Assembly (NCBI RefSeq): GCF_020165855.1
Contig: NZ_JAIUFY010000004.1
Span: 1 to 34,723, forward strand
Source: Celeribacter litoreus
Lineage (GTDB): Bacteria > Pseudomonadota > Alphaproteobacteria > Rhodobacterales > Rhodobacteraceae
Direction: 5' to 3'
Length of the DNA: 34,723 nucleotides
Both the position numbers and the translations under genes were made by a program. Positions 166-15,621 of this stretch are shown in pieces; the first letter of the stretch is position 1, and every line of letters begins with the position of its first letter. The notes under the pieces are model-generated. The model did not search any database. It saw nothing but the letters and a program-made list of their open reading frames with translations, and was not told where the DNA came from.

Positions 166-347
166 ACGCCGCATCAGGATAGCAAACGTCGTCCCGTACG
201 CGGGGCGGCGAAGACCCAAAAGGCCCATCAAGGGCTGTGGGAAGGGAAGCGGCCCCGGCGAGGAGGCGGGGGACGCAATTTCAAGGATCTTCGGGACCAT
301 CCGGATTAGCCGGACTGAAGATCGGGGACAAAATGGGAGGACCCGCA

Positions 348-605
348 ATGGCGGAAAATTCTGAGAACAATGCATACTGGTCCGCAAACAAGCGGATTAT
401 CGGTATTTCGCTGGTGATTTGGTTCATCTGCTCTTTCGGCTTTGGCATTCTGCTTCGCCCGATGCTCGCCGGCATCAAAATCGGTGGAACGGATCTTGGC
501 TTCTGGTTTGCCCAGCAAGGCTCGATCCTCGTATTCCTCGTCCTCATTTTCACCTACGCGGCGAAAATGAACAAACTCGACAAACAGCACGGCGTCGACG
601 AGTAA
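348..605 (+). CDS. DUF4212 small subunit of sodium:solute symporter
   Basis: An 85-residue protein with two hydrophobic helices (about residues 15-37 and 52-74) joined by a short polar loop. This matches the DUF4212 family (putative sodium:solute symporter small subunit), which is nearly always encoded just before an SSS transporter of the VC_2705 type. The start at 348 follows a good GGGAGG ribosome-binding site at 335-340. An in-frame ATG at 237 would add 37 residues that do not look like the family. The stop is 12 bp before the symporter start, so the two are almost certainly cotranscribed. The biochemical role is not established for the family; assembly or regulation of the transporter is inferred. 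Confidence 0.9.
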   Translation: MAENSENNAYWSANKRIIGISLVIWFICSFGFGILLRPMLAGIKIGGTDLGFWFAQQGSILVFLVLIFTYAAKMNKLDKQHGVDE

Positions 606-617
606 GGAGCGCACAGA

Positions 618-2345
618 ATGGATCAGTTTACCCTCAACCTTATCGTTGTGGGCGCGACTTTTGCGCTCTACATCGGTATCGCGATCTGGGCCCGTGCGGG
701 TTCCACATCTGAATTCTACGCTGCAGGTCGCGGCGTTCACCCTGTCGTCAACGGCATGGCCACCGGCGCGGACTGGATGTCTGCTGCATCGTTCATCTCG
801 ATGGCCGGTATCATCTCGTTCGGCGGCTACAACACCTCTGCCTACCTGATGGGCTGGACCGGTGGTTACGTGCTTCTCGCCATGCTTATCGCACCTTACC
901 TGCGTAAGTTCGGCAAGTTCACTGTGCCGGAATTCATCGGCGACCGCTTCTACAGCCAGACTGCCCGTACCGTGGCCGTTATCTGTCTGATCACCGCATC
1001 GCTCACCTACGTGATTGGGCAGATGACCGGTGTTGGCGTGGCGTTCTCCCGCTTCCTCGAAGTGGACAACACAACCGGCCTTCTTATCGGTGCGGCCATC
1101 GTGTTCTTCTACGCTGTTATCGGCGGCATGAAGGGCATCACCTACACGCAGGTTGCCCAGTACGTCGTTCTGATCACCGCCTACACCATTCCGGCGATCT
1201 TCATCTCCTTCAACCTGACCGGCAACCCGATCCCGCCGCTCGGTCTGTTTGCAGATGCGAAATCCACCGGTCTGCCGATCCTCGAGACCCTCAACGGAAT
1301 GCTCGAAGATCTGGGCTTTGCAGAATACACCCGTCAGACGGACACCACGCTGAACATGTTCCTGTTCACCGTCTCCCTGATGATCGGTACTGCAGGTCTG
1401 CCGCACGTGATCGTGCGCTTCTTCACCGTGCCGACCGTGGCTGACGCCCGTTCGTCCGCAGGTTGGGCGCTCGTGTTCATCGCGCTTCTCTACCTCACCG
1501 CTCCGGCTGTGGGTGCGATGGCCCGCGTGAACCTGATCGACACGGTTTACCCGAATGGCACCACCGAAGCACCGCTCGCCTATGAGCAGCGCCCGGATTG
1601 GGTCAGCAACTGGGAGCAAACCGGTCTTCTCAGCTTTGACGACAAAAACGGCGACGGCCTCATCCAGTACGTCGGCGACGGCGAAGCCAACGAACTGACC
1701 GTGAACCGCGACATCATCACGCTCGCAAACCCGGAAATCGCCAACCTGCCGGGTTGGGTGATCGCTCTGGTCGCTGCTGGTGGTCTTGCTGCTGCACTCT
1801 CCACCGCGGCTGGTCTCTTGATGGCGATCTCGTCCGCTGTGTCTCACGACCTCATCAAGTCGCAGATCAACCCGTCCATCTCGGAAAAAGGCGAACTGAT
1901 GTCCGCTCGTGTTTCCATGGCCGTGGCGATCGTGATTGCGACCTACCTTGGTCTGAACCCTCCGGGCTTTGCTGCTCAAACCGTGGCGCTCGCCTTCGGT
2001 CTGGCTGCATCTTCCATCTTCCCGGCTCTGCTGATGGGCATCTTCTCGAAGCGCATCAACAACAAAGGCGCTGTGGCAGGTATGATTGCAGGTCTCTCCG
2101 TGACCCTGATCTACATCTTCCTGCACAAGGGTTGGTTCTTCATCCCGGGCACGAACAGCTTCTCCGACTCCGATCCGCTGCTGCTGTCGATCAAATCGAC
2201 CTCCTTCGGTTCCCTCGGTGCTCTGGTGAACTTCGTTGTGGCCTACGTCGTCTCCAACGCGACCGAAGAGCCGCCGGTCGAAATCCAGGAACTGGTCGAA
2301 AGCGTCCGCATCCCGCGCGGTGCTGGCGAGGCCGTGGACCACTAA
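618..2345 (+). CDS. Sodium:solute symporter (acetate-type, VC_2705 subfamily)
   Basis: A 575-residue polytopic membrane protein of the SSS family. The N-terminus carries EFYAAGRGVHPVVNGMATG and ADWMSAASF, typical of ActP-like cation/carboxylate symporters. About a dozen or more hydrophobic segments follow. A long soluble insertion lies around residues 310-370, and the protein ends in a short polar tail. It should import a small monocarboxylate with sodium at the inner membrane. Acetate is inferred from the upstream acs and from the DUF4212 partner. The start at 618 has AGGAG at 606-610. A strong terminator follows the stop, so it ends its transcription unit. The substrate could also be propionate, pyruvate or lactate. 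Confidence 0.9.
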   Translation: MDQFTLNLIVVGATFALYIGIAIWARAGSTSEFYAAGRGVHPVVNGMATGADWMSAASFISMAGIISFGGYNTSAYLMGWTGGYVLLAMLIAPYLRKFGKFTVPEFIGDRFYSQTARTVAVICLITASLTYVIGQMTGVGVAFSRFLEVDNTTGLLIGAAIVFFYAVIGGMKGITYTQVAQYVVLITAYTIPAIFISFNLTGNPIPPLGLFADAKSTGLPILETLNGMLEDLGFAEYTRQTDTTLNMFLFTVSLMIGTAGLPHVIVRFFTVPTVADARSSAGWALVFIALLYLTAPAVGAMARVNLIDTVYPNGTTEAPLAYEQRPDWVSNWEQTGLLSFDDKNGDGLIQYVGDGEANELTVNRDIITLANPEIANLPGWVIALVAAGGLAAALSTAAGLLMAISSAVSHDLIKSQINPSISEKGELMSARVSMAVAIVIATYLGLNPPGFAAQTVALAFGLAASSIFPALLMGIFSKRINNKGAVAGMIAGLSVTLIYIFLHKGWFFIPGTNSFSDSDPLLLSIKSTSFGSLGALVNFVVAYVVSNATEEPPVEIQELVESVRIPRGAGEAVDH

Positions 2346-2355
2346 ATCAGGTTTC

Positions 2356-2424
2356 GGGCTGGCTTCACGGCCAGCCCCTCACCATAATACGCGCGGGAGC
2401 TTTCAGTGAGCTTCCGCGTTTTTT
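2356..2424 (+). terminator. Tandem hairpins ending in an intrinsic terminator
   Basis: The first hairpin is 2356-2363 pairing with 2370-2377 (8 bp, 6-nt loop). The second is 2392-2401 pairing with 2409-2418 (10 bp with one G-U pair, 7-nt loop), followed by TTTTTT at 2419-2424. The second has the form of a Rho-independent terminator for the symporter operon. The next gene's first possible ATG lies only six bases beyond the T tract. Confidence 0.85.
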
Positions 2425-2429
2425 AATTC

Positions 2430-4262
2430 ATGTTCGGACCTGACATGCGCAAGACCCAAAAGATTATCGACTTTTTGCAAACCACGCATCCGTATGATGT
2501 TTTGCCAAAAGACGAGCTTGAAGCCCTCGCGAACTCATTCTCGCGCAAGGAATTCAAGGAGGGCGACGTGGTCTATGCCCACGGTGAGTTGCTCGAAGGT
2601 CTCTACCTGATCAAGGCCGGCGCCGTGGAAATCACCGACGCCAACGGGGCGCAGGTCTCTCTGCTCCAGAAATCGAACCACTTCGGCGAACGCGGCCTCC
2701 TGCGCGACGGGATTGCGGCCACGACGGCAACGGCAGCCTCCGCCTGCACGCTCCTGATGCTCCCGCCCGCGGACTTCAAACACGAAGTCGAGGCCAACCC
2801 CGCCTTCGCCCGTTACTTCAACCGTGGTCAAGCCCGTCCAAAAGCTGCCTCCGGTCTCATGACGCAACACGTCTCCGACCTCATGGCCAACGCCCCAGTG
2901 ACCTGCACCGCGAACACAACCATCGCGGATTGCGCCAAACTCATGCGCGCGGAAAAAATCTCCTCGGTGGCCGTGCTTGAAGGCGACCAAATCAAGGGCC
3001 TCGTGACCGTGCGCGACATGACGAACAAGGTGCTCGCCGAAGGCCGCGACAGCGCCCTGCCCGTCTCCGAGATCATGGTGAACAATCCCATTAGCGTTTC
3101 CCCCGGCGCGCTCGGCACGGACGTCATCCACATCATGCTCGAAAACCGGATCGGCCACTTGCCCGTGGTTGAGGGTGGCAAACTCGTCGGCATGATCACC
3201 CAGACCGACATCACGCGGTTCTTCGGCTCGTCCCAGACGCAGATGGTCTTCGATCTCACAAAAGCCCAAACCATTCGGGAAATGGCGGCCGTCACCGAAC
3301 GCTTGCCGCAGTTCCTGATGCAGCTCGTGGGCTCCCACCTCGCGCATGATGTCGTGACACGCAAAATCACCGACGTGGCCGACCTCGTCACCCGTCGCCT
3401 GCTCAAAATGGGTGAAGAAGAATTCGGTCCCGCGCCCGTCCCCTACCTCTGGGCCGCCTGTGGCTCTCAGGGCCGCCGCGAACAAACGGGCGTGTCGGAT
3501 CAGGATAACTGCCTGATCATCGACAATGCCGCGACCAACGCAGATATGTCCTACTTCCGCAAACTCGCGCGCTTTGTCTGCGACGGCCTCGACTCCTGTG
3601 GCTACGTCTATTGCCCCGGTGAGATGATGGCCATGACTGACCGCTGGTGCCAACCGCTCAAGGTCTGGGAAGGCTACTTTGACGGCTGGATCAACAAACC
3701 GGACGGAGAGGCGCAAATGCTCGCCTCCGTCATGTTCGACCTGCGCCCCATCGCGGGCGATGAGCGCCTCTTCACCCCGCTTCAGGAAAAGGCCCTGAAC
3801 GCGGCACAGAAGAACTCCATCTTCCTCGCGTTCATGATCTCCAACTCGCTTGGACACACGCCGCCGCTCGGCCTCCTGCGCGGGTTCGCGACGATCAAAT
3901 CCGGCGAACATCGCAACCAACTCGACATGAAGCACAACGGCGTTGTGCCCATCGTCGATCTGGGTCGCGTCTATGCACTCAAAGGCGGGCTCGCCGCCGT
4001 GAACACGCGCGCGCGGATCGATGCCGCGATTGAGACCGGCGTTGTGTCGGAGAACGGCGGCAAAGACCTCTTGGCGGCCTATGACACGATTGCCTCCGCC
4101 CGTCTCGAACATCAGGCGGCCCAAGTCCGCGACGGCCAAAAACCCGATAACTTCCTGAGCCCCTCGGCCATCCCCGCATTTGAACGCTCTCACCTGCGCG
4201 ATGCCTTCGTCATCGTCCGCACCATGCAATCCTCGCTCGGCTCATCCGCCGCGCGCACATAA
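2430..4262 (+). CDS. cNMP-binding / CBS-pair / DUF294 nucleotidyltransferase-like protein
   Basis: A 610-residue signalling protein. Residues about 15-130 form a cyclic-nucleotide-binding fold (EGDVVYAHGELLEGLYLIKAGAVEI as two strands). Residues about 145-270 are two CBS domains that usually bind adenylates. Residues about 290-450 are a DUF294 nucleotidyltransferase-like domain with GSQGRREQTG and a downstream DQD acidic pair near residues 344-358, followed by DUF294_C. The family resembles GlnD-type nucleotidyltransferases and is often found beside acetate-type symporters, so a role in adjusting transport or acetate metabolism to energy state is inferred. Two starts are possible, 2430 and 2445; neither has a strong ribosome-binding site, and 2430 lies against the terminator T tract. 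Confidence 0.85.
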   Translation: MFGPDMRKTQKIIDFLQTTHPYDVLPKDELEALANSFSRKEFKEGDVVYAHGELLEGLYLIKAGAVEITDANGAQVSLLQKSNHFGERGLLRDGIAATTATAASACTLLMLPPADFKHEVEANPAFARYFNRGQARPKAASGLMTQHVSDLMANAPVTCTANTTIADCAKLMRAEKISSVAVLEGDQIKGLVTVRDMTNKVLAEGRDSALPVSEIMVNNPISVSPGALGTDVIHIMLENRIGHLPVVEGGKLVGMITQTDITRFFGSSQTQMVFDLTKAQTIREMAAVTERLPQFLMQLVGSHLAHDVVTRKITDVADLVTRRLLKMGEEEFGPAPVPYLWAACGSQGRREQTGVSDQDNCLIIDNAATNADMSYFRKLARFVCDGLDSCGYVYCPGEMMAMTDRWCQPLKVWEGYFDGWINKPDGEAQMLASVMFDLRPIAGDERLFTPLQEKALNAAQKNSIFLAFMISNSLGHTPPLGLLRGFATIKSGEHRNQLDMKHNGVVPIVDLGRVYALKGGLAAVNTRARIDAAIETGVVSENGGKDLLAAYDTIASARLEHQAAQVRDGQKPDNFLSPSAIPAFERSHLRDAFVIVRTMQSSLGSSAART

Positions 4263-4280: not shown

Positions 4281-4799
4281 ATGCTTCTCGAATTCATCGC
4301 CACAATCTCCGCAGGTGTCGGTGCCGCCGGTATCATTCTCGGCCTGCAGAAAGTGACGAAAAGCAATTTCCCGAAATGGCTCATGCCGTCTTGTGCGGGC
4401 GTTGCGATGCTCGCCTTTTCTGTCTGGTCCGACTACTCGTGGGCCTCGCGCGCCGAGCAGAACCTTGGCACCGATCCGGTCGTAGCCGTGACCATCGACA
4501 AACGTCAGGTCTGGCGCCCTTGGACCTTTATCGTGCCGGTCACGACCCGCTTTATCGCGCTCGAACGCGACGGGGCAGAGATCAAGGGCGAGACAGTCGT
4601 CACCGAGATGTACCTCGCCTCGCGCCGCGAACAGAGCGCCATCGTGCCCGTCGCGTTTGACTGCCATGAACTCCAACGCGCGGAGGCAACCGGCCTCCCC
4701 GAAGGTGCTTGGACAGAGGACGATCTGGCCACGCTCGCATGGATCGACGTAGAAGAGGACGACCCGACCCTGCGCACGGCCTGCGGGATGCTACGCTAA
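4281..4799 (+). CDS. Small membrane-anchored protein of unknown function
   Basis: A 172-residue protein with two predicted membrane helices (about residues 4-22 and 33-50) and a soluble domain of some 120 residues, predicted mostly beta. The soluble part contains DKRQVWRPWTFIVPVTTRFI, an acidic stretch and a late cysteine. I do not recognise a characterised family. It sits 18 bp after the DUF294 gene and 18 bp before the receiver-domain gene, so it is probably in the same operon. The start at 4281 has AGAAGGG at 4264-4270. It may be a partner of the transporter or of the sensor-like exonuclease, but nothing in the sequence settles this. Confidence 0.75.
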   Translation: MLLEFIATISAGVGAAGIILGLQKVTKSNFPKWLMPSCAGVAMLAFSVWSDYSWASRAEQNLGTDPVVAVTIDKRQVWRPWTFIVPVTTRFIALERDGAEIKGETVVTEMYLASRREQSAIVPVAFDCHELQRAEATGLPEGAWTEDDLATLAWIDVEEDDPTLRTACGMLR

Positions 4800-4817: not shown

Positions 4818-5207
4818 ATGGAGGAGCGGCCAACGATCATTCTTGTCGAAGACGAGGACAACATCGCGATTGCCATCGAAATTCTGATGGAACGCGCGGG
4901 CTATGACGTCGTGCATGTGAGAGACGGGGCGCAGGCCCTTCCGAACATCCGCGCGCAGTCCCCCGCGCTCGTCATTCTCGACGTCACGCTGCCGGGGCTC
5001 TCGGGATACGAAATTTGCCAACAGATGCGGCTCGACCCTGCGCTCGTGGATATTCCGGTGCTCATCATGTCCGCCCGCGCGTCAGAGCCGGAGCGGCGCA
5101 AAGGCCTCGCCATGGGCGCTGATCTGTTCCTGACCAAGCCGTTCTCGATGGACGAGATGCGCGCCTCCGTCACCCGCCTGATCGAAGGAGGCCGTCATGA
5201 AAATTGA
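4818..5207 (+). CDS. Stand-alone response regulator receiver domain (CheY-like)
   Basis: A 129-residue receiver domain with no output domain. The acidic pocket is E11/D12, the predicted phospho-acceptor is D55 (VILDVTLPG), S85 is the conserved hydroxyl residue, and K107 lies in LTKPF, so all switch residues are present. GGAGGAGG at 4807-4814 precedes the start at 4818. The last 11 bases overlap the next gene, which indicates translational coupling. A single-domain regulator normally acts by binding a partner protein; the coupled membrane exonuclease, which carries a sensor-kinase-like module, is the obvious candidate. The kinase that phosphorylates it is not visible. Confidence 0.92.
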   Translation: MEERPTIILVEDEDNIAIAIEILMERAGYDVVHVRDGAQALPNIRAQSPALVILDVTLPGLSGYEICQQMRLDPALVDIPVLIMSARASEPERRKGLAMGADLFLTKPFSMDEMRASVTRLIEGGRHEN

Positions 5208-7323
5208 GAACTGGTCACTTCGCCTTCGGGTCTTCTTGTTTTTCGCCTTTCTGGCCTCCGCCGCGATTGCAGCGGTCGTGGCTGGCCTCACACTCGGGTT
5301 CAGCCGTTTGGATGTGCCGGAGGCACGGGACGGGTTCATTTTCGCCGGCACCATCGCGAGCTTTGTCATCCTCGGCGTCGTCGCGTGGATTTGGCTCCTC
5401 TTTGACGACAATGTCGCCAAACCGATCCAGCGTCTCGCCGGTGGCATGTTGGCCCGCGCCCATGCAGACGTCGATGAGGCCATTGACGCGAAAACCGCGC
5501 GCTATCTCGGTGATCTGGCCCCCGCCGCCCGCGCCGTGACCGCGAACCTCGCGGCAACGCGCAACAAACTCGCCGAAACCATCGCGCAGGAAACCACGCG
5601 ATTGGTTGAGGAGAAGGAAAAGCTCGCCGCTCTCTCCGCAGAGATGCCGCTGGGCGTCGTGATGCTCTCCGGCCTGCACAAAATGGCCTTCTACAATGGC
5701 GCAGCGGCGGAACTTCTCTCGACCGATCACGCGCCTGGCCTCGATCATTCCATCTTCGACTTCCTCCGCGCGCGCCCCATCATTTCCGCCTACGAACGCC
5801 TCTGTAATGGCGAAGGCGGGGACGGCCATGTCCTCTCTCTCATGGTCGCGACGGTCCACGGCGGGCAAATTCTCTCCGCCCGAATGCGCCTCATGCACGC
5901 GCCGAGCGAAGGCGATCTGAGCCCGTCCTATGTCCTCACCCTCGACGACGTGACCGCTGATCTCGCCGTCCAAGGCGACCGTGAGAAATTGCTCGCAACG
6001 CTCTTCACCCGCCTGCGCCCCTCGATTGCGTCCCTGCAAACCACTCTCGCCGCCCGTGCAGTGCATCCGAGCCTGCAACAAGACGCACGCCTCGACGCCG
6101 CCCTCGCCGACGAGATGGGCAAGCTCACCGACACCGTCGAAGAACTCCACGGCGCGTTTGAGGCCGCCAAAGCCGACTGGTGGCCCATGGCCCCCGTCCG
6201 CAGCACCGAACTCAGCGACGCCCTCGCCGCGCAACTGGCAGAAGACAACATCACCATCGCCGCCGATTCCGCAGAACTCATGGAATTGACCGTCGACGCG
6301 GTGCAGATCATCACCCTCCTGCGCCACGTCGCCCGCGAACTCACGCGAATTGGCGCGCGCGCTCTCTCGTTCCTCGTCTCCCGCGACGAAACCGGCGGTG
6401 CGATGCTCGCGCTCGGTTGGACCGGCGATCCGTTGTCTGTCGATCTGCTCGAAACGTGGTTCCAAGACCCGCTCGACGTCGGCCTCGCGGACATGACCGG
6501 ACGCGATATCCTCACCATCCATGGCACAGACGCGTGGCCCGAATTCGGGCGCGCCTCGCGCAGTGTCCTGAAGCTCCCGATCCGAAAAGCCCGCCGCCTC
6601 CGCCGCACCTATGGCGACGGACGCCGCGCTGTGACCTATGACTTCGACCTCCTGTCCCGTCAGCCGTCGAAAGAACTCATGGAAACGCCGCTCTCGGAAC
6701 TGTCCTACGTGGTCTTCGACACGGAAACGACCGGCCTCCTGCCATCTCACGGCGACGAGATTTGCCAAGTCGCCGCCCTCCGCGTCGTCAACGGTCGGAT
6801 CGTGGACACCGAAACGCTCGACGAACTCGTCGATCCCTGCCGCCCCATTCCCGCCTCTTCGACCGCCGTGCACCACATCACCAACGAGATGGTCAAAGGC
6901 AAACCGAAGATCGACGTGATCGGGCGCAAGCTTCATAGTTTTGCCCGTGGATCTGTGCTCGTTGCACATAATGCGCCATTTGACCTCGAATTCCTGCGCA
7001 GACATGAGGTCGACATCGGAGAGAAATTCACCCATCCAGTGCTCGACACGGTGCTTCTGTCCGCCATCGTCTTTGGTCAGTCAGAGGAACATACGCTCGA
7101 TGCGATCTCCGCACGGCTTGGCGTCAAAATCCCGCCAGAGGCCCGTCACACGGCGATGGGAGACACGATTGCGACGGCGCAGGTCTTCATCAAAATGATG
7201 CGCATGGCGGAAGAACGCGGGATCGTCACTTTCGGCGAGGCTTTGACAGAAATGCGCAAGCACAAACGCCTGCTCCAAGATGCCAACGAGCAGCAGATGC
7301 AAAAAGCCACTGCATCAAAATAG
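5197..7323 (+). CDS. Membrane sensor-like protein fused to a DnaQ-family 3'-5' exonuclease
   Basis: A 708-residue fusion. Two membrane helices (about residues 12-35 and 47-70) flank a very short outer loop. A HAMP-like stretch, a coiled coil near 115-150 and a PAS-like segment near 150-250 follow. Residues about 260-480 resemble the dimerisation and ATPase parts of a histidine kinase but show no phospho-accepting His and no clear N or G boxes. Residues about 500-695 are a DEDDh exonuclease of the DNA polymerase III epsilon type: D508 and E510 in FDTETTG, D596 in HNAPFD, H651 and D656 in RHTAMGD, so the catalytic set is complete. The start at 5197 has AAGGAG and overlaps the receiver gene by 11 bp. 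Such exonucleases are known near acetate symporters; the function is unproven. Confidence 0.87.
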   Translation: MKIENWSLRLRVFLFFAFLASAAIAAVVAGLTLGFSRLDVPEARDGFIFAGTIASFVILGVVAWIWLLFDDNVAKPIQRLAGGMLARAHADVDEAIDAKTARYLGDLAPAARAVTANLAATRNKLAETIAQETTRLVEEKEKLAALSAEMPLGVVMLSGLHKMAFYNGAAAELLSTDHAPGLDHSIFDFLRARPIISAYERLCNGEGGDGHVLSLMVATVHGGQILSARMRLMHAPSEGDLSPSYVLTLDDVTADLAVQGDREKLLATLFTRLRPSIASLQTTLAARAVHPSLQQDARLDAALADEMGKLTDTVEELHGAFEAAKADWWPMAPVRSTELSDALAAQLAEDNITIAADSAELMELTVDAVQIITLLRHVARELTRIGARALSFLVSRDETGGAMLALGWTGDPLSVDLLETWFQDPLDVGLADMTGRDILTIHGTDAWPEFGRASRSVLKLPIRKARRLRRTYGDGRRAVTYDFDLLSRQPSKELMETPLSELSYVVFDTETTGLLPSHGDEICQVAALRVVNGRIVDTETLDELVDPCRPIPASSTAVHHITNEMVKGKPKIDVIGRKLHSFARGSVLVAHNAPFDLEFLRRHEVDIGEKFTHPVLDTVLLSAIVFGQSEEHTLDAISARLGVKIPPEARHTAMGDTIATAQVFIKMMRMAEERGIVTFGEALTEMRKHKRLLQDANEQQMQKATASK

Positions 7324-7920
7324 AGCGCGCATTTTGCCCGTTTCACCCTTGTGATCAAAAAAGGGAACATGCTCCAGAGGACCGCCGCGCGTCAGCGCGG
7401 CCTCCACTTCCGCGAGGACAACACGCGTCACGAAAGGTAAATCAAAGCTCCGCGCGCCTTCGAGGGTGACCCACTGCAAATGGGACAACTCATCCTCTGC
7501 TCGCGAGAAATCATTCAGATCGCCTGCAATCTCGTCCGCACCGACGAGGAAGAACCGCGCATCAAACCGGCGCGGGCGTCCCGGCGGAGTGATCGCGCGG
7601 AATATGAACTGCATCGCACCAACGGATGGCAGGACCAGTCCCGTCTCTTCGCGCAACTCACGCAGCGCCGCATGTGGCAGCGCCCGCACCAAATCCGCAT
7701 CGCATTCTTTGGACAAACGCCGCGCACAATCGGGAGAGAGCGCCCCCGGAAGGTCCGCGCCAAAATCCTCTTGGTCCACCGCCCCGCCCGGAAAGACAAA
7801 CTTACCCGGCATAAACACCGCTTTGCGTCCGCGCTGCCCCATCAGGACACGTGGTTCAGCGTCGTCATTGCGCAATAGGATCACTGTCGCCGCATCGCGG
7901 ATCGGAACGTCTTTTTCCAT
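7315..7920 (-). CDS. NUDIX hydrolase
   Basis: A 201-residue protein. It opens with RDAATVILLRND and has PGKFVFPGGAVD, the strand and loop before the Nudix helix. The core helix reads AALRELREETGLVLP, matching REUXEEXGU. Between the GG loop and the helix lies an insertion of roughly 40 residues, as in the RNU/NUDT19-like group that often hydrolyses CoA derivatives or nucleoside diphosphate compounds. It acts in the cytoplasm; the substrate is unknown. Its 3' end overlaps the convergent exonuclease gene by 9 bp. It is preceded by copA on the same strand with 47 bp between, so it may be cotranscribed, but no functional link is evident. Confidence 0.87.
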   Translation of the reverse strand: MEKDVPIRDAATVILLRNDDAEPRVLMGQRGRKAVFMPGKFVFPGGAVDQEDFGADLPGALSPDCARRLSKECDADLVRALPHAALRELREETGLVLPSVGAMQFIFRAITPPGRPRRFDARFFLVGADEIAGDLNDFSRAEDELSHLQWVTLEGARSFDLPFVTRVVLAEVEAALTRGGPLEHVPFFDHKGETGKMRALF

Positions 7921-7967: not shown

Positions 7968-10406
7968 TCACAGCGCACGCTTTACCCGACGCAGGCGAAG
8001 CGCATTCGACACCACGAACACGGACGACATCGCCATCGCGCCAGCACCGAGCATCGGAGACAGCGTAATCCCGAACGCCGGATAAAGCACACCCGCCGCC
8101 ACAGGGATCAGGGCCGCATTATAGGCAAAGGCCCAGAACAGGTTCTGACGGATATTTCCCATTGTTTTCCGACTGATATCACAGGCGGTCACGACCCCTG
8201 CCGGATCACCTTTGGTGAGCACAACATCCGCCGCCTCAATGGCGACATCAGTCCCCGTGCCCATCGCGATCCCGACATCAGCCGCCGCCAGCGCAGGCGC
8301 GTCGTTGATTCCGTCGCCAACAAAGCCGACGTTTCCGAACTGCTCCCGCAGCGTCTCGACGATCTTCGCTTTGCCCTTTGGCAGCACCTCTGCCTCGACA
8401 TGATCGACGCCCAACTGTGCAGCCACACTGCGCGCCGCGCGCTCTGTGTCGCCGGAGACCATCGCGATCTTGATCCCGCGCGCATGAAGCGCCTCAACCG
8501 CCGCCCGTGCCGTCGGGCGTAGCGGATCAGAGACGCCAATGACCATCACAGGCGCACCGTCACGGGCCACGAGGACAGGGGTTTTCCCCTGATCAGCGAG
8601 GGCCGCGAGAGGAGCTTCAAACGCCGCTGTATCAATCTTTTCCCGCGTCATGAGGCGCATATTGCCAATGTGGAGCGCAGCGCCCTCCACGTCAGCCTTG
8701 AGCCCATGCCCCGCAATCGCGCGCGCTTTGCCAACCTCGGGAAGCATAAGTCCGCGATCCTTCGCAGCACGTTCGAGCGCGCGGGCAATCGGGTGTTCAG
8801 ATTTCGCCTCGGCCGCTGCCACCATCGCAATCAGCTCGTTTTCATCACCAGAGATCGTCACAATGTCCGTCACCTCGGGGCGGCCTTCGGTGAGCGTACC
8901 GGTCTTGTCAAAGGCCAGAACCTTGACGCCTTGCAGGCCTTGGAGCGCATCTCCCTTGCGGAACAGCACGCCAAGCTCCGCCGCGCGCCCCGTCCCGACC
9001 ATGATCGACGTCGGCGTGGCGAGGCCCATCGCACAGGGGCAGGCGATGATCAGAACAGCCACACCGGCCACAAGAGCATGGGCCACCTTCGGCTCCGGCC
9101 CGATGGCGAGCCAGACGCCAATCGTGAGCAGCGCGAGGCCCATCACAACCGGCACGAAATACATCGTCACCTTATCGACAAGCGACTGGATCGGCAGTTT
9201 CGCCCCTTGTGCATCCTCGACCATACGCATGATCTGGGCGAGCATCGTGTCCGCCCCGACCTTTTCCGCCACATAGGTCATCGCGCCTTCGCCGTTGACC
9301 GTACCCGCGATCAGGGGGCTGTTCGGGGCCTTGGACACAGGGATCGGCTCACCGGAAATCATCGCCTCATCGACGTGGCTCTCCCCAGAGAGCACCTTGC
9401 CATCCACCGCGATCTTTTCACCGGGGCGCAGATGCAGCACGTCGCCGACAGCAATCTCTTCGACGGGGATCTCTACAACCACACCGTCCCGCTCGACCCG
9501 CGCCGTCTTGGCCCGCAGCCCTGCAAGTTTACGAATTGCATCGCCCGTGCGGCCTTTGGCCCGCGCCTCAAGCCACCGGCCCAAAAGGATCAGTGTGACA
9601 ATCACACTGGCCGCTTCGAAATAGACGTTCTGCGCGCCTTCCGGCACCGCGAGAGGCCAGAGCGTCACAAACGCCGAATAGAGAAATGCCGCCCCCGCAC
9701 CCAAGGCCACAAGCGCATTCATATCCGGCCCACCACGCAAGAGCGACGGGATGCCCTTCGCAAAAAACACATGGCCCGGTCCCGCGAGCACAACAATCGA
9801 CAGCGCCATTTGCGTATAGCGCCACGCCCATTCCGGCACCGTCATCATCCACCAATGGTGCAGCGGCGGGAACAGATGCCCGCCCATCTCCACGAGAAAA
9901 ATCGGCAGCGTCAGCACAGCGGCGAGGAGCAATTTCCCCTTCAGCGCGCGCGCTTCGTCCTCTTTGCGATTCACAGGCGCCGCGTCGCGATCAATGCGCG
10001 GCGCGGCCTGATACCCCGCCTTCGCGACCACATCGACCAGTTGATCGACCGTGACCACACCGCTGAGAAACTTGACCGAAGCCGTTTCCGCCGCGAGGTT
10101 CACCGACGCCTCTGTCACGCCCTCCACATCCGCCAAAGCACGCTCCACCCGCCCGACACAGGACGCGCAGGTCATGCCCTGAATATCAAAGGTGATCTCT
10201 TCGGTCCGCGCGGGATAACCCGCCTTATCGAGAACCTCGACAAGCTCCTTCACATCGACCTGCTCGTCAAAACTCACATCCGCGGTTTCCGTCGCGAGGT
10301 TCACGTTGGCCTTCGTCACACCCTCCGTGCCGGACAGAGCGCGTTCAACGCGTCCGACACAAGACGCACAGGTCATGCCTTCGATGGAAAATCGTGTCGC
10401 GTTCAT
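7968..10406 (-). CDS. copA: Copper-exporting P1B-type ATPase
   Basis: An 812-residue P1B-1 ATPase. Two heavy-metal-binding domains at the N-terminus each carry MTCASC (C13/C16 and C80/C83). Eight membrane helices are expected. The ion-binding motif is CPC (C456-P-C458) in ACPCAMGLATP. The phosphorylated aspartate is D500 in DKTGT, followed by SEHPIA and GDGINDAPAL. The final helices have YN and MSS, the signature of Cu(I)-exporting members rather than Zn/Cd pumps. It uses ATP to move Cu(I) out of the cytoplasm. It starts 111 bp from the divergent copper chaperone gene, so the two probably share regulatory DNA; I could not pick out a convincing CueR box. Confidence 0.95.
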   Translation of the reverse strand: MNATRFSIEGMTCASCVGRVERALSGTEGVTKANVNLATETADVSFDEQVDVKELVEVLDKAGYPARTEEITFDIQGMTCASCVGRVERALADVEGVTEASVNLAAETASVKFLSGVVTVDQLVDVVAKAGYQAAPRIDRDAAPVNRKEDEARALKGKLLLAAVLTLPIFLVEMGGHLFPPLHHWWMMTVPEWAWRYTQMALSIVVLAGPGHVFFAKGIPSLLRGGPDMNALVALGAGAAFLYSAFVTLWPLAVPEGAQNVYFEAASVIVTLILLGRWLEARAKGRTGDAIRKLAGLRAKTARVERDGVVVEIPVEEIAVGDVLHLRPGEKIAVDGKVLSGESHVDEAMISGEPIPVSKAPNSPLIAGTVNGEGAMTYVAEKVGADTMLAQIMRMVEDAQGAKLPIQSLVDKVTMYFVPVVMGLALLTIGVWLAIGPEPKVAHALVAGVAVLIIACPCAMGLATPTSIMVGTGRAAELGVLFRKGDALQGLQGVKVLAFDKTGTLTEGRPEVTDIVTISGDENELIAMVAAAEAKSEHPIARALERAAKDRGLMLPEVGKARAIAGHGLKADVEGAALHIGNMRLMTREKIDTAAFEAPLAALADQGKTPVLVARDGAPVMVIGVSDPLRPTARAAVEALHARGIKIAMVSGDTERAARSVAAQLGVDHVEAEVLPKGKAKIVETLREQFGNVGFVGDGINDAPALAAADVGIAMGTGTDVAIEAADVVLTKGDPAGVVTACDISRKTMGNIRQNLFWAFAYNAALIPVAAGVLYPAFGITLSPMLGAGAMAMSSVFVVSNALRLRRVKRAL

Positions 10407-12444: not shown

Positions 12445-13680
12445 TTAGCCTTCTTGCGCGGCGGCAAACCACGCGCGGATCGCGGCGCGGTCTTCGTCCG
12501 CGAGCGCCATATAGGTCCCCGCAGGCGGCATGGCATGGGTCACACCGGCCTGAAGCCAGATATCACGCGCATGATTGGCAACCTCATGCGGGCTTTCAAG
12601 CATCACACCTTTCGGCGGAGAGGCGAGCCCCTCCCAATACGGTTCCGCCGTATGGCACATGGAGCAGTTCGCGCTCACGATGTCATAGACCTCGTCAAAC
12701 CCTTCGGCGGACGCGAATTTCTGGGCGACGGGGCCGAGTGCGGCCTCACCGTCCATATCGCGCTGGCCGTAGATGCCCAGAGTAGACAGCCACATGACCA
12801 CGAGGAACAGACCCACGGTCAGACCCCAGGTCCACCACAGCATCCCGCCGCGTTTGTGCATGGTGTTGAAGAAGTGGCGGATCGTCACCCCCATCAGGAA
12901 CACGAGCGCCGCGATGAGCCAGTTGTATTCCGCCGCAAACGCGAGCGGGTAGTGGTTTGACAGCATCATGAAGATGACGGGCAGCGTGAGGTAGTTGTTA
13001 TGGGTGGAACGCTGCTTGGCGGTCTTGCCATACATCGGGTCCGGCGTGCGCCCTTCGCGGAGGTCTTTCACCACCACCTTCTGGTTCGGGATGATGATGA
13101 AGAACACGTTCGCGCTCATGACCGTCGCCGTGAAGGCCCCGAGGTGCAGGAACGCCGCGCGGCCCGTGAACACCTGCGTATAGCCCCACGCCATGATGAC
13201 GAGGATCGCATAGAGGATAATCATGAGGGCGGTGTCGCCCTTGCCCAGCATCAGTTTGCAGATCGTGTTGTAGGCGATCCAGCCAAAGGCGAGCGAGACG
13301 ATGGAGATGATGATCGCCACCGGCGTCGTGATGTCGAGCACGTTCGGATCAATCAGGTAAAGCTCCGCGCCCATGTAATAGACGACCGCCATGAGGGCCG
13401 CCCCAGAGAGCCATGTCGAATAGCTCTCCCATTTGAACCAGATGAGATCTTCCGGCATCCGCGCGGGCGCGACGAGGTATTTCTGGATGAAATAGAACCC
13501 GCCCCCATGGACCTGCCACTCCTCACCGCCGACGCCTTCGCGACGGTCGGAGGAGGGACGCAGCCCGAGATCGAGCGCGATAAAGTAGAACGACGACCCG
13601 ATCCACGCGATCGCGGTCACAACATGGAGCCAGCGGAGCGCAAATTCGGCCCACTCCCAAACGATTGGCAACAAAGACAT
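12445..13680 (-). CDS. puuD: Urate hydroxylase PuuD (membrane, cytochrome c-fused)
   Basis: A 411-residue protein. The N-terminal ~300 residues form the membrane domain of the urate oxidase PuuD family, beginning IVWEWAEFALRWLHVVTAIAWIGSSF, with about eight hydrophobic helices and conserved membrane histidines. The C-terminal ~85 residues are a class I cytochrome c domain with CSMCH (C339, C342, H343) and a late methionine in THAMPPAGTYM as likely axial ligand. It oxidises urate to 5-hydroxyisourate and passes electrons to the respiratory chain rather than to oxygen. The start at 13680 follows GGGGGAG. It starts 1 bp after the uraH stop, so the pair is an operon. Confidence 0.95.
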   Translation of the reverse strand: MSLLPIVWEWAEFALRWLHVVTAIAWIGSSFYFIALDLGLRPSSDRREGVGGEEWQVHGGGFYFIQKYLVAPARMPEDLIWFKWESYSTWLSGAALMAVVYYMGAELYLIDPNVLDITTPVAIIISIVSLAFGWIAYNTICKLMLGKGDTALMIILYAILVIMAWGYTQVFTGRAAFLHLGAFTATVMSANVFFIIIPNQKVVVKDLREGRTPDPMYGKTAKQRSTHNNYLTLPVIFMMLSNHYPLAFAAEYNWLIAALVFLMGVTIRHFFNTMHKRGGMLWWTWGLTVGLFLVVMWLSTLGIYGQRDMDGEAALGPVAQKFASAEGFDEVYDIVSANCSMCHTAEPYWEGLASPPKGVMLESPHEVANHARDIWLQAGVTHAMPPAGTYMALADEDRAAIRAWFAAAQEG

Positions 13681-13681
13681 T

Positions 13682-14056
13682 TTAGCTCCCCCGATAGGTC
13701 GAATAGCTGAAAGGCGACAACAAAAGCGGCACGTGGTAATGGCTCTCCGGATCACTGATCCCGAACCGCAGCGGAATTTCGTCGAGGAACAGCGGCTCCG
13801 CCCCGGCCTGTCCGGTGCTGCGGAGATAATCGCCAGCGTAGAACACCAGCTCGTAAGTTCCTGTCACAAAATCACCCGCAGGCAAGATCGGCGCATCCGT
13901 GCGGCCGTCGGAATTCGTCACCGCAGTGGCAATCTTTTCCCGATCTTCACCCGTCAGGCGAAAGAGCGCGATCTGAATCCCTTCGGCGGGCAATCCTTTG
14001 GCGGTGTCGAGAACATGGGTGGTCAAAAAACCGGACGTCATAGGCGTTTTGCTCAT
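13682..14056 (-). CDS. uraH: 5-hydroxyisourate hydrolase
   Basis: A 124-residue transthyretin-related protein. The first strand carries LTTHVLDTAKG with a catalytic histidine, the middle has NSDGRTDAP with the conserved arginine, HYHVPLLLSP gives the second histidine, and it ends in the signature YRGS. It hydrolyses 5-hydroxyisourate, the product of PuuD, to OHCU. The start at 14056 has only a weak upstream GGAG; ATG 14041 (MTSGFLTTHV) is also possible and would match many homologues. It lies 1 bp upstream of puuD and is divergent from puuE, with a shared promoter region. Confidence 0.93.
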   Translation of the reverse strand: MSKTPMTSGFLTTHVLDTAKGLPAEGIQIALFRLTGEDREKIATAVTNSDGRTDAPILPAGDFVTGTYELVFYAGDYLRSTGQAGAEPLFLDEIPLRFGISDPESHYHVPLLLSPFSYSTYRGS

Positions 14057-14122
14057 TTTGAATGCATTTTCTCCGTCACACTGTCGGAAAGCAAAGAGGT
14101 GGACAATAAAACATTTCACCAG

Positions 14123-14146
14123 ATTGGATACAAAATAGTATTCAAT
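14123..14146. promoter_or_regulatory. Dyad in the divergent uraH/puuE promoter region
   Basis: ATTGGATAC at 14123-14131 pairs with GTATTCAAT at 14138-14146 (one G-T mismatch) around a 6-base AT spacer. The site is in the AT-rich gap between uraH and puuE, about 50-70 bp from each start. The half-sites look like GTAT-ATAC-centred operators of FadR-type GntR regulators, which control purine catabolism in related bacteria. That assignment is an inference; no GntR gene is in the window. Confidence 0.5.
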
Positions 14147-14193
14147 ACGCTACAAGCCTACCAAATAGTCAAAAAACCAAAAGGCCCTCTAAA

Positions 14194-15621
14194 ATGCCAA
14201 AAAATCCACCGCGTTATGTTCGAAACATGCAGGGCTACGGAGCGCACGCGCCCGATCCGCAATGGCCGGGTGGGGCAAAAGTCGCGGTTCAGTTCGTCCT
14301 CAACTACGAAGAAGGCGGCGAAAACTGCGTTCTCCACGGGGATGCGGCGTCAGAAGCCTTCCTCTCCGACATCGCGGGCGCCGCGATGTGGCAGGGCAAG
14401 CGCCACTGGAACATGGAATCAATCTACGAATACGGCGCGCGCGCAGGTTTCTGGCGTCTGCACCGCCTCTTCACCGGCGCGAATATCCCCGTGACGATCT
14501 ACGGCGTGGCCACCGCACTGGCGCGTTCGCCGGAACAGGTCGCGGCGATGCAGGACGCCGGATGGGAAATCGCCTCCCACGGTCTCAAATGGGTCGAACA
14601 CAAAGACATGCCCGAGGACGAAGAACGCGCCGCGATTGCGGAAGCGATCCGTCTGCACGAAGAAGTCACCGGCGAACGGCCCTACGGCTGGTATACGGGC
14701 CGCTGCTCGGAAAACACCGTCCGCCTCGTCTCCGAAGAAGGCGGCTTTGATTACGTCTCCGACACCTACGATGACGACCTGCCCTATTGGCTTGAAGTCG
14801 GAGATCGCGACCAACTGATCATCCCCTACACGCTCGAAGCCAACGACATGCGCTTCGCCACGGCACCGGGTTACATCACGGGCGAGCAGTTCTTCACCTA
14901 CCTCAAAGACGCCTTTGATGTGCTCTACGCGGAAGGCTCCGAGAGCACGCCGAAGATGATGAATATCGGCCTCCATTGCCGCCTTATCGGTCGTCCCGGT
15001 AAACTCGCAGGCCTCAAAAAATTCATCGAATACATCCAAGGATTCGAAGACGTTTGGACCCCGCGCCGCATCGATATCGCCCGCCACTGGGCCGCAACCC
15101 ATCCGCACAGCCGCGTCGAAAAGCCATCCGAACTCTCGCAGGACGACTACGTCGCCAAGTTCGGCAGCATCTTCGAACACAGCCCGTGGGTCGCAGAGCG
15201 CGCATGGGGTCTCGAACTTGGTCCGGCGCATGATACATGGATCGGCACCCACTCCGCCCTGTGCCGCGCCTTCCGCCGCGCGACGCCCGAGGAGAAGATG
15301 GGCGTGCTCACAGCGCACCCCGATCTCGCCGGAAAACTCGCACAGGCCAAACGCCTGACCGCAGAGAGCACCTCGGAACAGGCCTCCGCCGGTCTCGACG
15401 CCCTGACCGACGAAGAGCGCGCGACATTCGAGGCGCTGAACACCGAATATACCGAAAAATTCGGCTTCCCCTTTATCATCGCCGTAAAAGACAATACGAA
15501 AGACACCATCCTCAAGGCCTTCCACGCCCGTCTGACCAACACAGCAGACGAAGAATTCGCCACCGCATGTCGTCAGGTGGAGCGGATCGCATGGCATCGC
15601 CTCAAAGAGATGAACTTCTAA
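14194..15621 (+). CDS. puuE: Allantoinase (PuuE) fused to OHCU decarboxylase (UraD)
   Basis: A 475-residue bifunctional protein. Residues 1 to about 305 are a PuuE allantoinase of the polysaccharide-deacetylase fold: RDMQ-like start (RNMQGYG), VLNYEEGGE, EIASHGLKW, GWYTGRCSENT and MNIGLHCRLIGRPGK. Residues about 318-475 are an OHCU decarboxylase, with FEHSPWVAERAW (H329), AHPDLAGKL, TSEQASAGLD and LNTEYTEKFGFPFIIAV. One chain thus converts OHCU to S-allantoin and then allantoin to allantoate. The start at 14194 has a weak ribosome-binding site. allE follows after 13 bp. Family fusions of this order are known in several proteobacteria. Confidence 0.95.
   Translation: MPKNPPRYVRNMQGYGAHAPDPQWPGGAKVAVQFVLNYEEGGENCVLHGDAASEAFLSDIAGAAMWQGKRHWNMESIYEYGARAGFWRLHRLFTGANIPVTIYGVATALARSPEQVAAMQDAGWEIASHGLKWVEHKDMPEDEERAAIAEAIRLHEEVTGERPYGWYTGRCSENTVRLVSEEGGFDYVSDTYDDDLPYWLEVGDRDQLIIPYTLEANDMRFATAPGYITGEQFFTYLKDAFDVLYAEGSESTPKMMNIGLHCRLIGRPGKLAGLKKFIEYIQGFEDVWTPRRIDIARHWAATHPHSRVEKPSELSQDDYVAKFGSIFEHSPWVAERAWGLELGPAHDTWIGTHSALCRAFRRATPEEKMGVLTAHPDLAGKLAQAKRLTAESTSEQASAGLDALTDEERATFEALNTEYTEKFGFPFIIAVKDNTKDTILKAFHARLTNTADEEFATACRQVERIAWHRLKEMNF

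Follow-up and report, generated by a model that had tools for sequence, protein, structure and literature searches.

A receiver gene and an overlapping gene for a predicted membrane pseudokinase–exonuclease in Celeribacter litoreus

Receiver and kinase-like exonuclease protein

The window analysed here, 34,723 nucleotides of Celeribacter litoreus DNA (NZ_JAIUFY010000004.1), is one entire contig of a 3.66-Mb genome. Its + strand carries, in this order, genes for a DUF4212 protein, an SSF symporter, a DUF294 protein, a 172-residue protein, a single-domain receiver and a 708-residue exonuclease protein (Table 1), and the last two genes are the subject of this report. Their open reading frames (ORFs), encoding 129 and 708 amino acids, share 11 bp (5197–5207), as had been described in an earlier note made from the sequence alone; the observations of that note were confirmed, and its interpretation, a signal-controlled nuclease at the membrane, was partly supported. 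The best named match comes from Celeribacter naphthalenivorans (77%).

The receiver matches Pfam Response_reg over residues 7–118 (E 5.6e-25). When it was aligned with neighbouring receivers from other loci (111 of the 114 adjacent receivers counted below), D55, K107, P108 and F109 were identical in 111/111, position 12 was Asp in 107/111 and position 85 was Thr or Ser in 109/111. With its phospho-accepting Asp, conserved Lys and T/S switch, and with no output domain in its 129 residues, the protein is a single-domain response regulator, intact as had been claimed. A cysteine at position 67 (window 5016–5018) is also retained in 107/111 adjacent receivers. At two loci, L064 (7001–9082) and L084 (5252–7354), the adjacent receivers are only 34–36% identical to that of the window, although the exonuclease proteins reach 43–54%, which may reflect an exchange of the partner receiver; the receivers of L174 and L209 are likewise low-scoring.

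We modelled the 708-residue protein with AlphaFold on a 52-row alignment (mean predicted local distance difference test score 91.0). The model places helices at residues 8–37 and 43–90, in agreement with the proposed two-helix membrane protein, followed by a helical linker up to a PAS domain, and has a weak linker at residues 471–474. Pfam applied to the window protein alone gave RNase_T as the sole match above cut-off and missed both the PAS domain and the kinase-like part, but PAS_4 was matched in 11 of 21 relatives. Of the HAMP/PAS-like parts that had been proposed, the PAS domain thus stands, whereas HAMP (PF00672) gave no Pfam match at E 0.01 in the 21 relatives; a HAMP-like linker is suggested by the helical model and by the resemblance of residues about 46–259 to sensor kinases, which we take to be of the NtrY type (21–32% identity, extending in few genomes up to about residue 399).

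The earlier note had made its reading depend on a kinase-like fold in residues 260–480, and such a fold was found in residues 252–470. A 74-row profile of residues 252–476 finds histidine kinases in the PDB (E 1.9e-11 and 4.8e-10), and AlphaFold combined with Foldseek and VIA confirms the fold, a DHp hairpin followed by a CA domain; for VIA the kinase-like part was folded and searched separately, as the list for the full model was filled by the exonuclease alone. Individual members are recognised less readily, with Pfam at E up to 0.1 matching HisKA in 14/74 and HATPase_c in 2/74. The phosphoacceptor His is present in 0/128 rows at position 271, where the window has Thr, consistent with the reported lack of a phospho-His, and the G1 box DxGxG reads WxGxP in the window, its Asp being lost in 134/134 rows that have a residue at this position (W 128, A 3, S 2, G 1). 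The kinase-like part is therefore a pseudokinase, with the fold kept and the catalytic kinase residues gone.

The retained DHp and CA fold, together with the phospho-switch residues of the receiver, would be compatible with a protein that acts on the receiver, either as a phosphatase or as a degenerate kinase that transfers phosphate, the exonuclease then being a separate output. The loss of the acceptor His and of the G1 Asp in every row scored argues against this, as do the residues found where the HisKA phosphatase motif (E/D-x-x-T/N) would lie: position 272 is Arg or Gly in 74/140 rows (though Glu or Asp in 20) and position 275 is Arg or Ala in 85/140. We regard this alternative as highly improbable.

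At the C-terminal end, RNase_T (PF00929) is matched over residues 505–664 (E 2.4e-33; 116.4 bits, cut-off 24), and D508, E510, D596, H651 and D656 are invariant in all 52 alignment rows. The DEDDh site is thus complete, as had been proposed, and 3′–5′ exonuclease activity is predicted.

Distribution of the receiver gene and a candidate kinase

To place this pair of genes in a wider setting, we assembled loci from searches of 149 genomes of the family, 289 of the class and 398 of the phylum, and from 80 named loci (the best 80 of 547). The 189 anchor ORFs yielded 185 counted loci after setting aside a duplicate (L177), a frame split in two ORFs with the receiver present (L086) and two incomplete loci (L214, L222); L144 and L145 were omitted as copies of loci already in the set. 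Seven loci (L105, L151, L179, L184, L187, L218, L248) were counted as receiver-present, with a receiver ORF exceeding the 900-nt filter or lying 275 nt off, and L087, L146 and L148 were classed as DHp-truncated rather than long. The fusion gene, which had been called unusual, was scored (intact or broken) in 71 of the 148 other genomes of the family sample and in other classes as well. It occurs in two architectures, a long form of about 690 residues and a short form of about 470 residues in which the PAS domain runs directly into the exonuclease.

A receiver gene lies next to the exonuclease gene in 114/125 loci with DHp helices and in 0/60 loci without them, the latter rechecked without the 900-nt filter. 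These 60 comprise 51 short forms and 9 loci in which the helices are truncated or gone (L232 in this group is a short form by eye), and 59 are informative, as L130, a broken frame, has 140 nt upstream. Part of the module is kept, with DHp truncated or gone and no adjacent receiver, in L087, L088, L125, L129, L146, L148, L188 and L235. A first tally on a smaller set had given a receiver with 31/36 long forms and 0/44 short forms (L086 and L125 among the latter). The proposed link between receiver and protein thus extends past adjacency in one genome: the receiver gene adjoins the exonuclease gene almost only where the pseudokinase is kept, which suggests that the nuclease is under two-component control. 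A tree built from just the HAMP-PAS region and the exonuclease shows 8 changes in DHp presence, of which at least 5 fall on starred branches, and 15 changes in receiver presence. The betaproteobacterial copy in Pusillimonas minor (L188), which has symporter and DUF294 genes but has lost the DHp helices and has no receiver, sits among Rhodobacteraceae in this tree and likely reflects horizontal transfer.

In other lineages kinase, receiver and exonuclease occur together, and this names a candidate kinase for the receiver. A sensor kinase of about 900–1040 residues is linked to the exonuclease in 40/185 loci (38 with DHp helices, 2 short), lying at most 456 nt from the exonuclease ORF in 35 of the 40; none of the 40 is among the 70 loci counted for the window's family. 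The H-box, N-box and G1 motifs are retained in 28/28 kinases read through the HisKA region, the other 12 ending at the locus edge. Pfam detects HisKA and HATPase_c in 5/5 kinases scanned and an N-terminal SSF domain in L141 (E 1.5e-7), but no SSF at E 0.001 in the other four (L136, L229, L241, L253); we take the candidate to be CrbS-like.

The genome of the window encodes such a kinase on another contig (C10:10095–12788; 898 residues; motifs HELRTP, NLITNA and DNGTG), with a 129-residue receiver upstream (C10:9405–9794). Of the 23 other receivers that match the one in the window, this scores best (75.3 bits), in effect a tie with a PhoB-sized protein at 74.7. Downstream of this kinase lies a 332-residue protein with a FliM/FliN C-terminal domain (L261 4406–8875, corresponding to C10:9405–13874), odd company for such a sensor kinase. 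An intact kinase that tracks the long form within the family was considered and rejected, the kinase being present in 133/149 family genomes, far more than carry the long form. Our reading is that the pathway would run from kinase to receiver to pseudokinase–exonuclease, with the kinase relocated in the window's family.

Proposed receiver reading by the pseudokinase and its precedents

The best account, to which we give somewhat better than even chances, is a membrane exonuclease, encoded in a carboxylate-uptake operon, whose kinase module reads the phosphorylated receiver in the manner of the Caulobacter crescentus pseudokinase DivL. We favour it because it fits a kinase that is dead, a receiver and a nuclease that are live, and the joint occurrence of these parts. 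Another sensor kinase, intact and about 900 residues long, whose large N-terminal region resembles a symporter in at least one case, would phosphorylate the receiver, which would then dock on the DHp-like hairpin as phosphorylated DivK does on DivL. The resulting conformational change would travel along the rod to the C-terminal DEDDh domain and turn the nuclease up or down; the PAS domain and the two transmembrane helices may provide a second input. As output, the most likely would be trimming of RNA 3′ ends at the membrane, tuning carboxylate-uptake and central-carbon genes.

Several observations weigh against this account. Eleven loci with DHp helices have no adjacent receiver, and 7 of them keep R274, the residue three positions after the lost His (it is lost in L132, L194, L217 and L221); L221, L227 and L249 among the eleven have less than 900 nt of upstream sequence. 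In the short forms L141 and L142 a strong receiver (183 and 163 bits) lies 1.5–1.6 kb off, past the DUF294 gene and with a kinase linked, so that the receiver there must have another target. An independent-pairs test on the tree, with just 5 pairs, gave a mean of 4.3 changing the same way and none the opposite way (p 0.06–0.5), making the tree-aware significance of the receiver/DHp link weak though its direction is uniform. Of the 100 highest-ranking inter-protein pairs in a mean-field direct coupling analysis of 111 pairs (effective 90), run with no positive control, 1 fell at the canonical interface, against 7.9 expected, and no receiver–exonuclease fusion occurs in the 189 anchor ORFs. Within the family the candidate kinase is not specific to the long form, and a kinase of the C10 type may have its own upstream receiver as partner. 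The nearest solved folds of the exonuclease (PolC exo, DinG, epsilon and ExoX, then RNase T and TREX) are mostly DNA enzymes and do not favour RNA, and the broad epsilon-family model TIGR00573 is reached (90.7 bits, cut-off 71.5). Finally, for the Pseudomonas putida exonuclease PP_0353, discussed below, the available part of PMC9927547 reports no kinase-like part or receiver, and the likeness is by description rather than by sequence.

Some of these points favour a different role for the module, mainly as a rod for dimerisation and signal passing between the membrane and PAS parts and the nuclease, with the receiver acting elsewhere, for example on the DUF294 protein or on another regulator, and the two being lost together through shared deletions or ancestry. 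Short forms keep the membrane helices, PAS domain and exonuclease in the same operon type, so the nuclease can dispense with the module; in L141 and L142 receiver and kinase persist in the vicinity of a short form, and the coupling analysis gave no docking signal. On the other side stand the eight loci listed above in which a partial module with truncated or missing DHp helices is always without an adjacent receiver, and the retention of R274 alongside the receiver (109/114 receiver-bearing loci), and we consider such a rod rather unlikely. Receiver reading by the pseudokinase is slightly strengthened by the intact kinase linked in 40 loci, a gain tempered by L141 and L142 and by the wide distribution of the kinase in the family.

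DivL and its partner DivK offer the closest precedent: a PAS protein with the DHp and CA fold but no phospho-His, a single-domain receiver as partner, and an Arg at His+3, with which R274 aligns (DivL R553). According to the available part of PMC4211667, the R553A substitution disrupts DivK binding, and DivL is without kinase and phosphatase activity. The parallel has its limits, as DivL acts on the kinase CckA, whereas the 708-residue protein has its own DEDDh exonuclease output and finds its receiver in the next gene; the His is mostly replaced by Glu or Asp in the exonuclease family (Thr in the window) rather than by Tyr, and receiver binding here is proposed by analogy. SLC5/STAC sensor kinases (CrbS, CbrA, RpuS) resemble the candidate kinase, with its length of about 900 residues, terminal HisKA/HATPase and SSF domain in L141, and would correspond to that candidate partner rather than to the exonuclease protein. 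NtrY-type kinases differ in having no nuclease, and an NtrY-type copy (L003) appears from its scores to belong with active-kinase models. Exonucleases of the DnaQ, PolC and DinG types share the complete DEDDh site and fold but not the fusion to a membrane signalling rod.

The output of two-component systems usually takes the form of DNA binding, cyclic-di-GMP turnover, methylation or partner binding. If receiver reading is correct, the DivL principle would extend from a single protein of the cell cycle to a widespread family that carries an enzyme of its own, and the coexistence in one family of long forms with a receiver and short forms without makes the role of the module testable by swaps. 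Among the titles and abstracts listed in our literature searches, none described a fusion of a histidine-kinase-like protein with a DnaQ exonuclease, although subscription papers were mostly uncovered and absence is therefore unproven.

Operon partners and substrate of the exonuclease

Of the 101 loci whose flanks are wide, 91 have a DUF294-like gene (BLAST E up to 1e-8; 53/62 with DHp helices, 38/39 without) and 84 an SSF symporter. The position of the DUF294 gene varies, upstream in some loci and downstream, in either orientation, in others, so that its link with the exonuclease withstands rearrangement; the exonuclease–DUF294 pair is thus the core, and the pseudokinase and receiver look like a control layer gained or lost. 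Four loci (L216, L218, L237, L246) have two separate DUF294-matching ORFs downstream of the exonuclease gene, perhaps through duplication or frame breaks.

Table 1. Features of the operon and of the 708-residue protein (window coordinates).
Feature	Position	Strand	Basis
DUF4212 / TIGR03647 small subunit of sodium:solute symporter	318..605	+	Pfam PF13937 E 3.5e-33; TIGR03647
VC_2705-family SSF symporter	618..2345	+	TIGR03648 830 bits, cut-off 320.75
Terminator-like hairpin, 12 pairs then TTTTTAATTC, symporter/DUF294 gap	2391..2419	+	consensus scan only
cNMP-binding / CBS / DUF294 nucleotidyltransferase / DUF294_C protein, motif GSQGRREQTGVSDQD	2430..4262	+	Pfam
172-aa protein, no known family, hydrophobic N-terminal segments	4281..4799	+	Pfam, NCBIfam, PADLOC
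Single-domain (CheY-like) receiver, 129 aa, phospho-acceptor D55, K107	4818..5207	+	Pfam Response_reg
708-aa gene: two transmembrane helices, HAMP-like, PAS, pseudo(DHp+CA), DEDDh exonuclease	5197..7323	+	ORF, Pfam, alignment, model
Two transmembrane helices, residues 8–37 and about 43–68, very short loop	5218..5400	+	AlphaFold helices 8–37, 43–90; hydrophobicity by eye
PAS domain, residues 150–251	5644..5949	+	AlphaFold; PAS_4 in relatives
DHp-like helical hairpin, residues 253–289, 297–328	5953..6180	+	AlphaFold, profile, DivL alignment
Degenerate H-box, T271 at His position, R274 at His+3	6007..6018	+	alignments
CA-like domain, residues 333–467, without ATP-site G1 Asp (W408)	6193..6597	+	alignment, model, fold search
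DEDDh 3′–5′ exonuclease domain, residues 500–675; D508, E510, D596, H651, D656	6694..7221	+	Pfam, alignment, fold search

The neighbours had been described as acetate transport genes. The symporter, however, scores 830 bits with TIGR03648 (cut-off 321) and 135 bits with the ActP equivalog TIGR02711 (cut-off 1099), so that acetate is only a guess at its substrate; uptake of a small monocarboxylate is probable. A comparable association has been described in P. putida, where pp_0353 (RNase_T) forms an operon with pp_0354 (CBS), ErdR binds the pp_0354 promoter, and the P. aeruginosa homologues lie by actP and yjcH, that is, among acetate/pyruvate genes targeted by MxtR/ErdR (CrbS/CrbR). In the available part of that report (PMC9927547), loss of pp_0353 delays growth on pyruvate and loss of pp_0354 has no such effect; on 20 mM acetate both mutants lack a phenotype, although fitness data for pp_0353 at 5 mM are cited. 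Pflu5625 (cAMP-binding/CBS/nucleotidyltransferase) belongs to the CrbS/R regulon with a negligible effect on growth, according to the available part of PMC5715377. The carbon-source phenotype of the pp_0353 mutant makes RNA our first guess at the substrate, with DNA second in view of the nearest folds, and receiver reading might in addition account for the effect of PP_0353 on growth with pyruvate.

A membrane-tethered exonuclease for DNA repair or proofreading, beside which the metabolic neighbours would be incidental, accords with those folds. The specific epsilon model TIGR01406 is nevertheless missed (104.2 bits, cut-off 222.7) and is reached by a separate DnaQ epsilon on contig C11 (251.7 bits), which makes DNA proofreading as the only role, an outcome that the earlier note held would overturn its reading, unlikely. 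The recurrent DUF294 and symporter genes argue in the same direction, as does the carbon-source phenotype of the PP_0353 deletion, for which the available part of PMC9927547 gives no DNA-use phenotype, and we judge the repair role distinctly unlikely. Among the 25 NCBIfam matches listed, of 32 in all, the protein reached no equivalog cut-off. Plasmid copies (15 of 39 records) are annotated as '3'-5' exonuclease', 'exonuclease domain-containing protein', 'DNA polymerase III subunit epsilon' or 'hypothetical protein'. PADLOC matched the exonuclease only to generic DEDDh and candidate-nuclease models, and an anti-phage role was set aside for want of supporting evidence.

DUF294_C has been grouped with GlnD/GlnE-type nucleotidyltransferases (available part of PMC3710099). 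The operon might accordingly be viewed as a split, signal-controlled GlnD-like switch, in which the cNMP/CBS-regulated DUF294 nucleotidyltransferase would add nucleotides to a target, either a protein or the 3′ end of an RNA, and its constant partner, the DEDDh exonuclease gated by the receiver, would remove them, the kinase–receiver pair setting the state of the carboxylate-uptake system. We hold this view to be very doubtful; if true, the pseudokinase–exonuclease would be a new two-component output, a regulated eraser. The motif pattern GSQGRREQTGVSDQD is present in 120/144 DUF294-like ORFs examined.

The DUF4212 gene lies in an ORF open from 237, its start being placed at an ATG (about 318). 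Owing to the hairpin and T run at 2391–2419, one of 10 such sites that the terminator consensus scan returned in 8 kb against 7.0 expected, the symporter and signalling genes may differ in expression level. The 172-residue protein, for which Pfam (above cut-off), NCBIfam and PADLOC gave no match, is carried by 70 of the 73 loci L063–L135 at 28–38% identity, in long and short forms alike. A NUDIX gene (7315–7920) faces the operon, followed at 7968–10406 by a copper-type P-ATPase with two N-terminal heavy-metal motifs (by eye) and at 12445–15621 by purine breakdown genes, including a PuuD-like membrane protein (by eye) and a fused allantoinase PuuE / OHCU decarboxylase.

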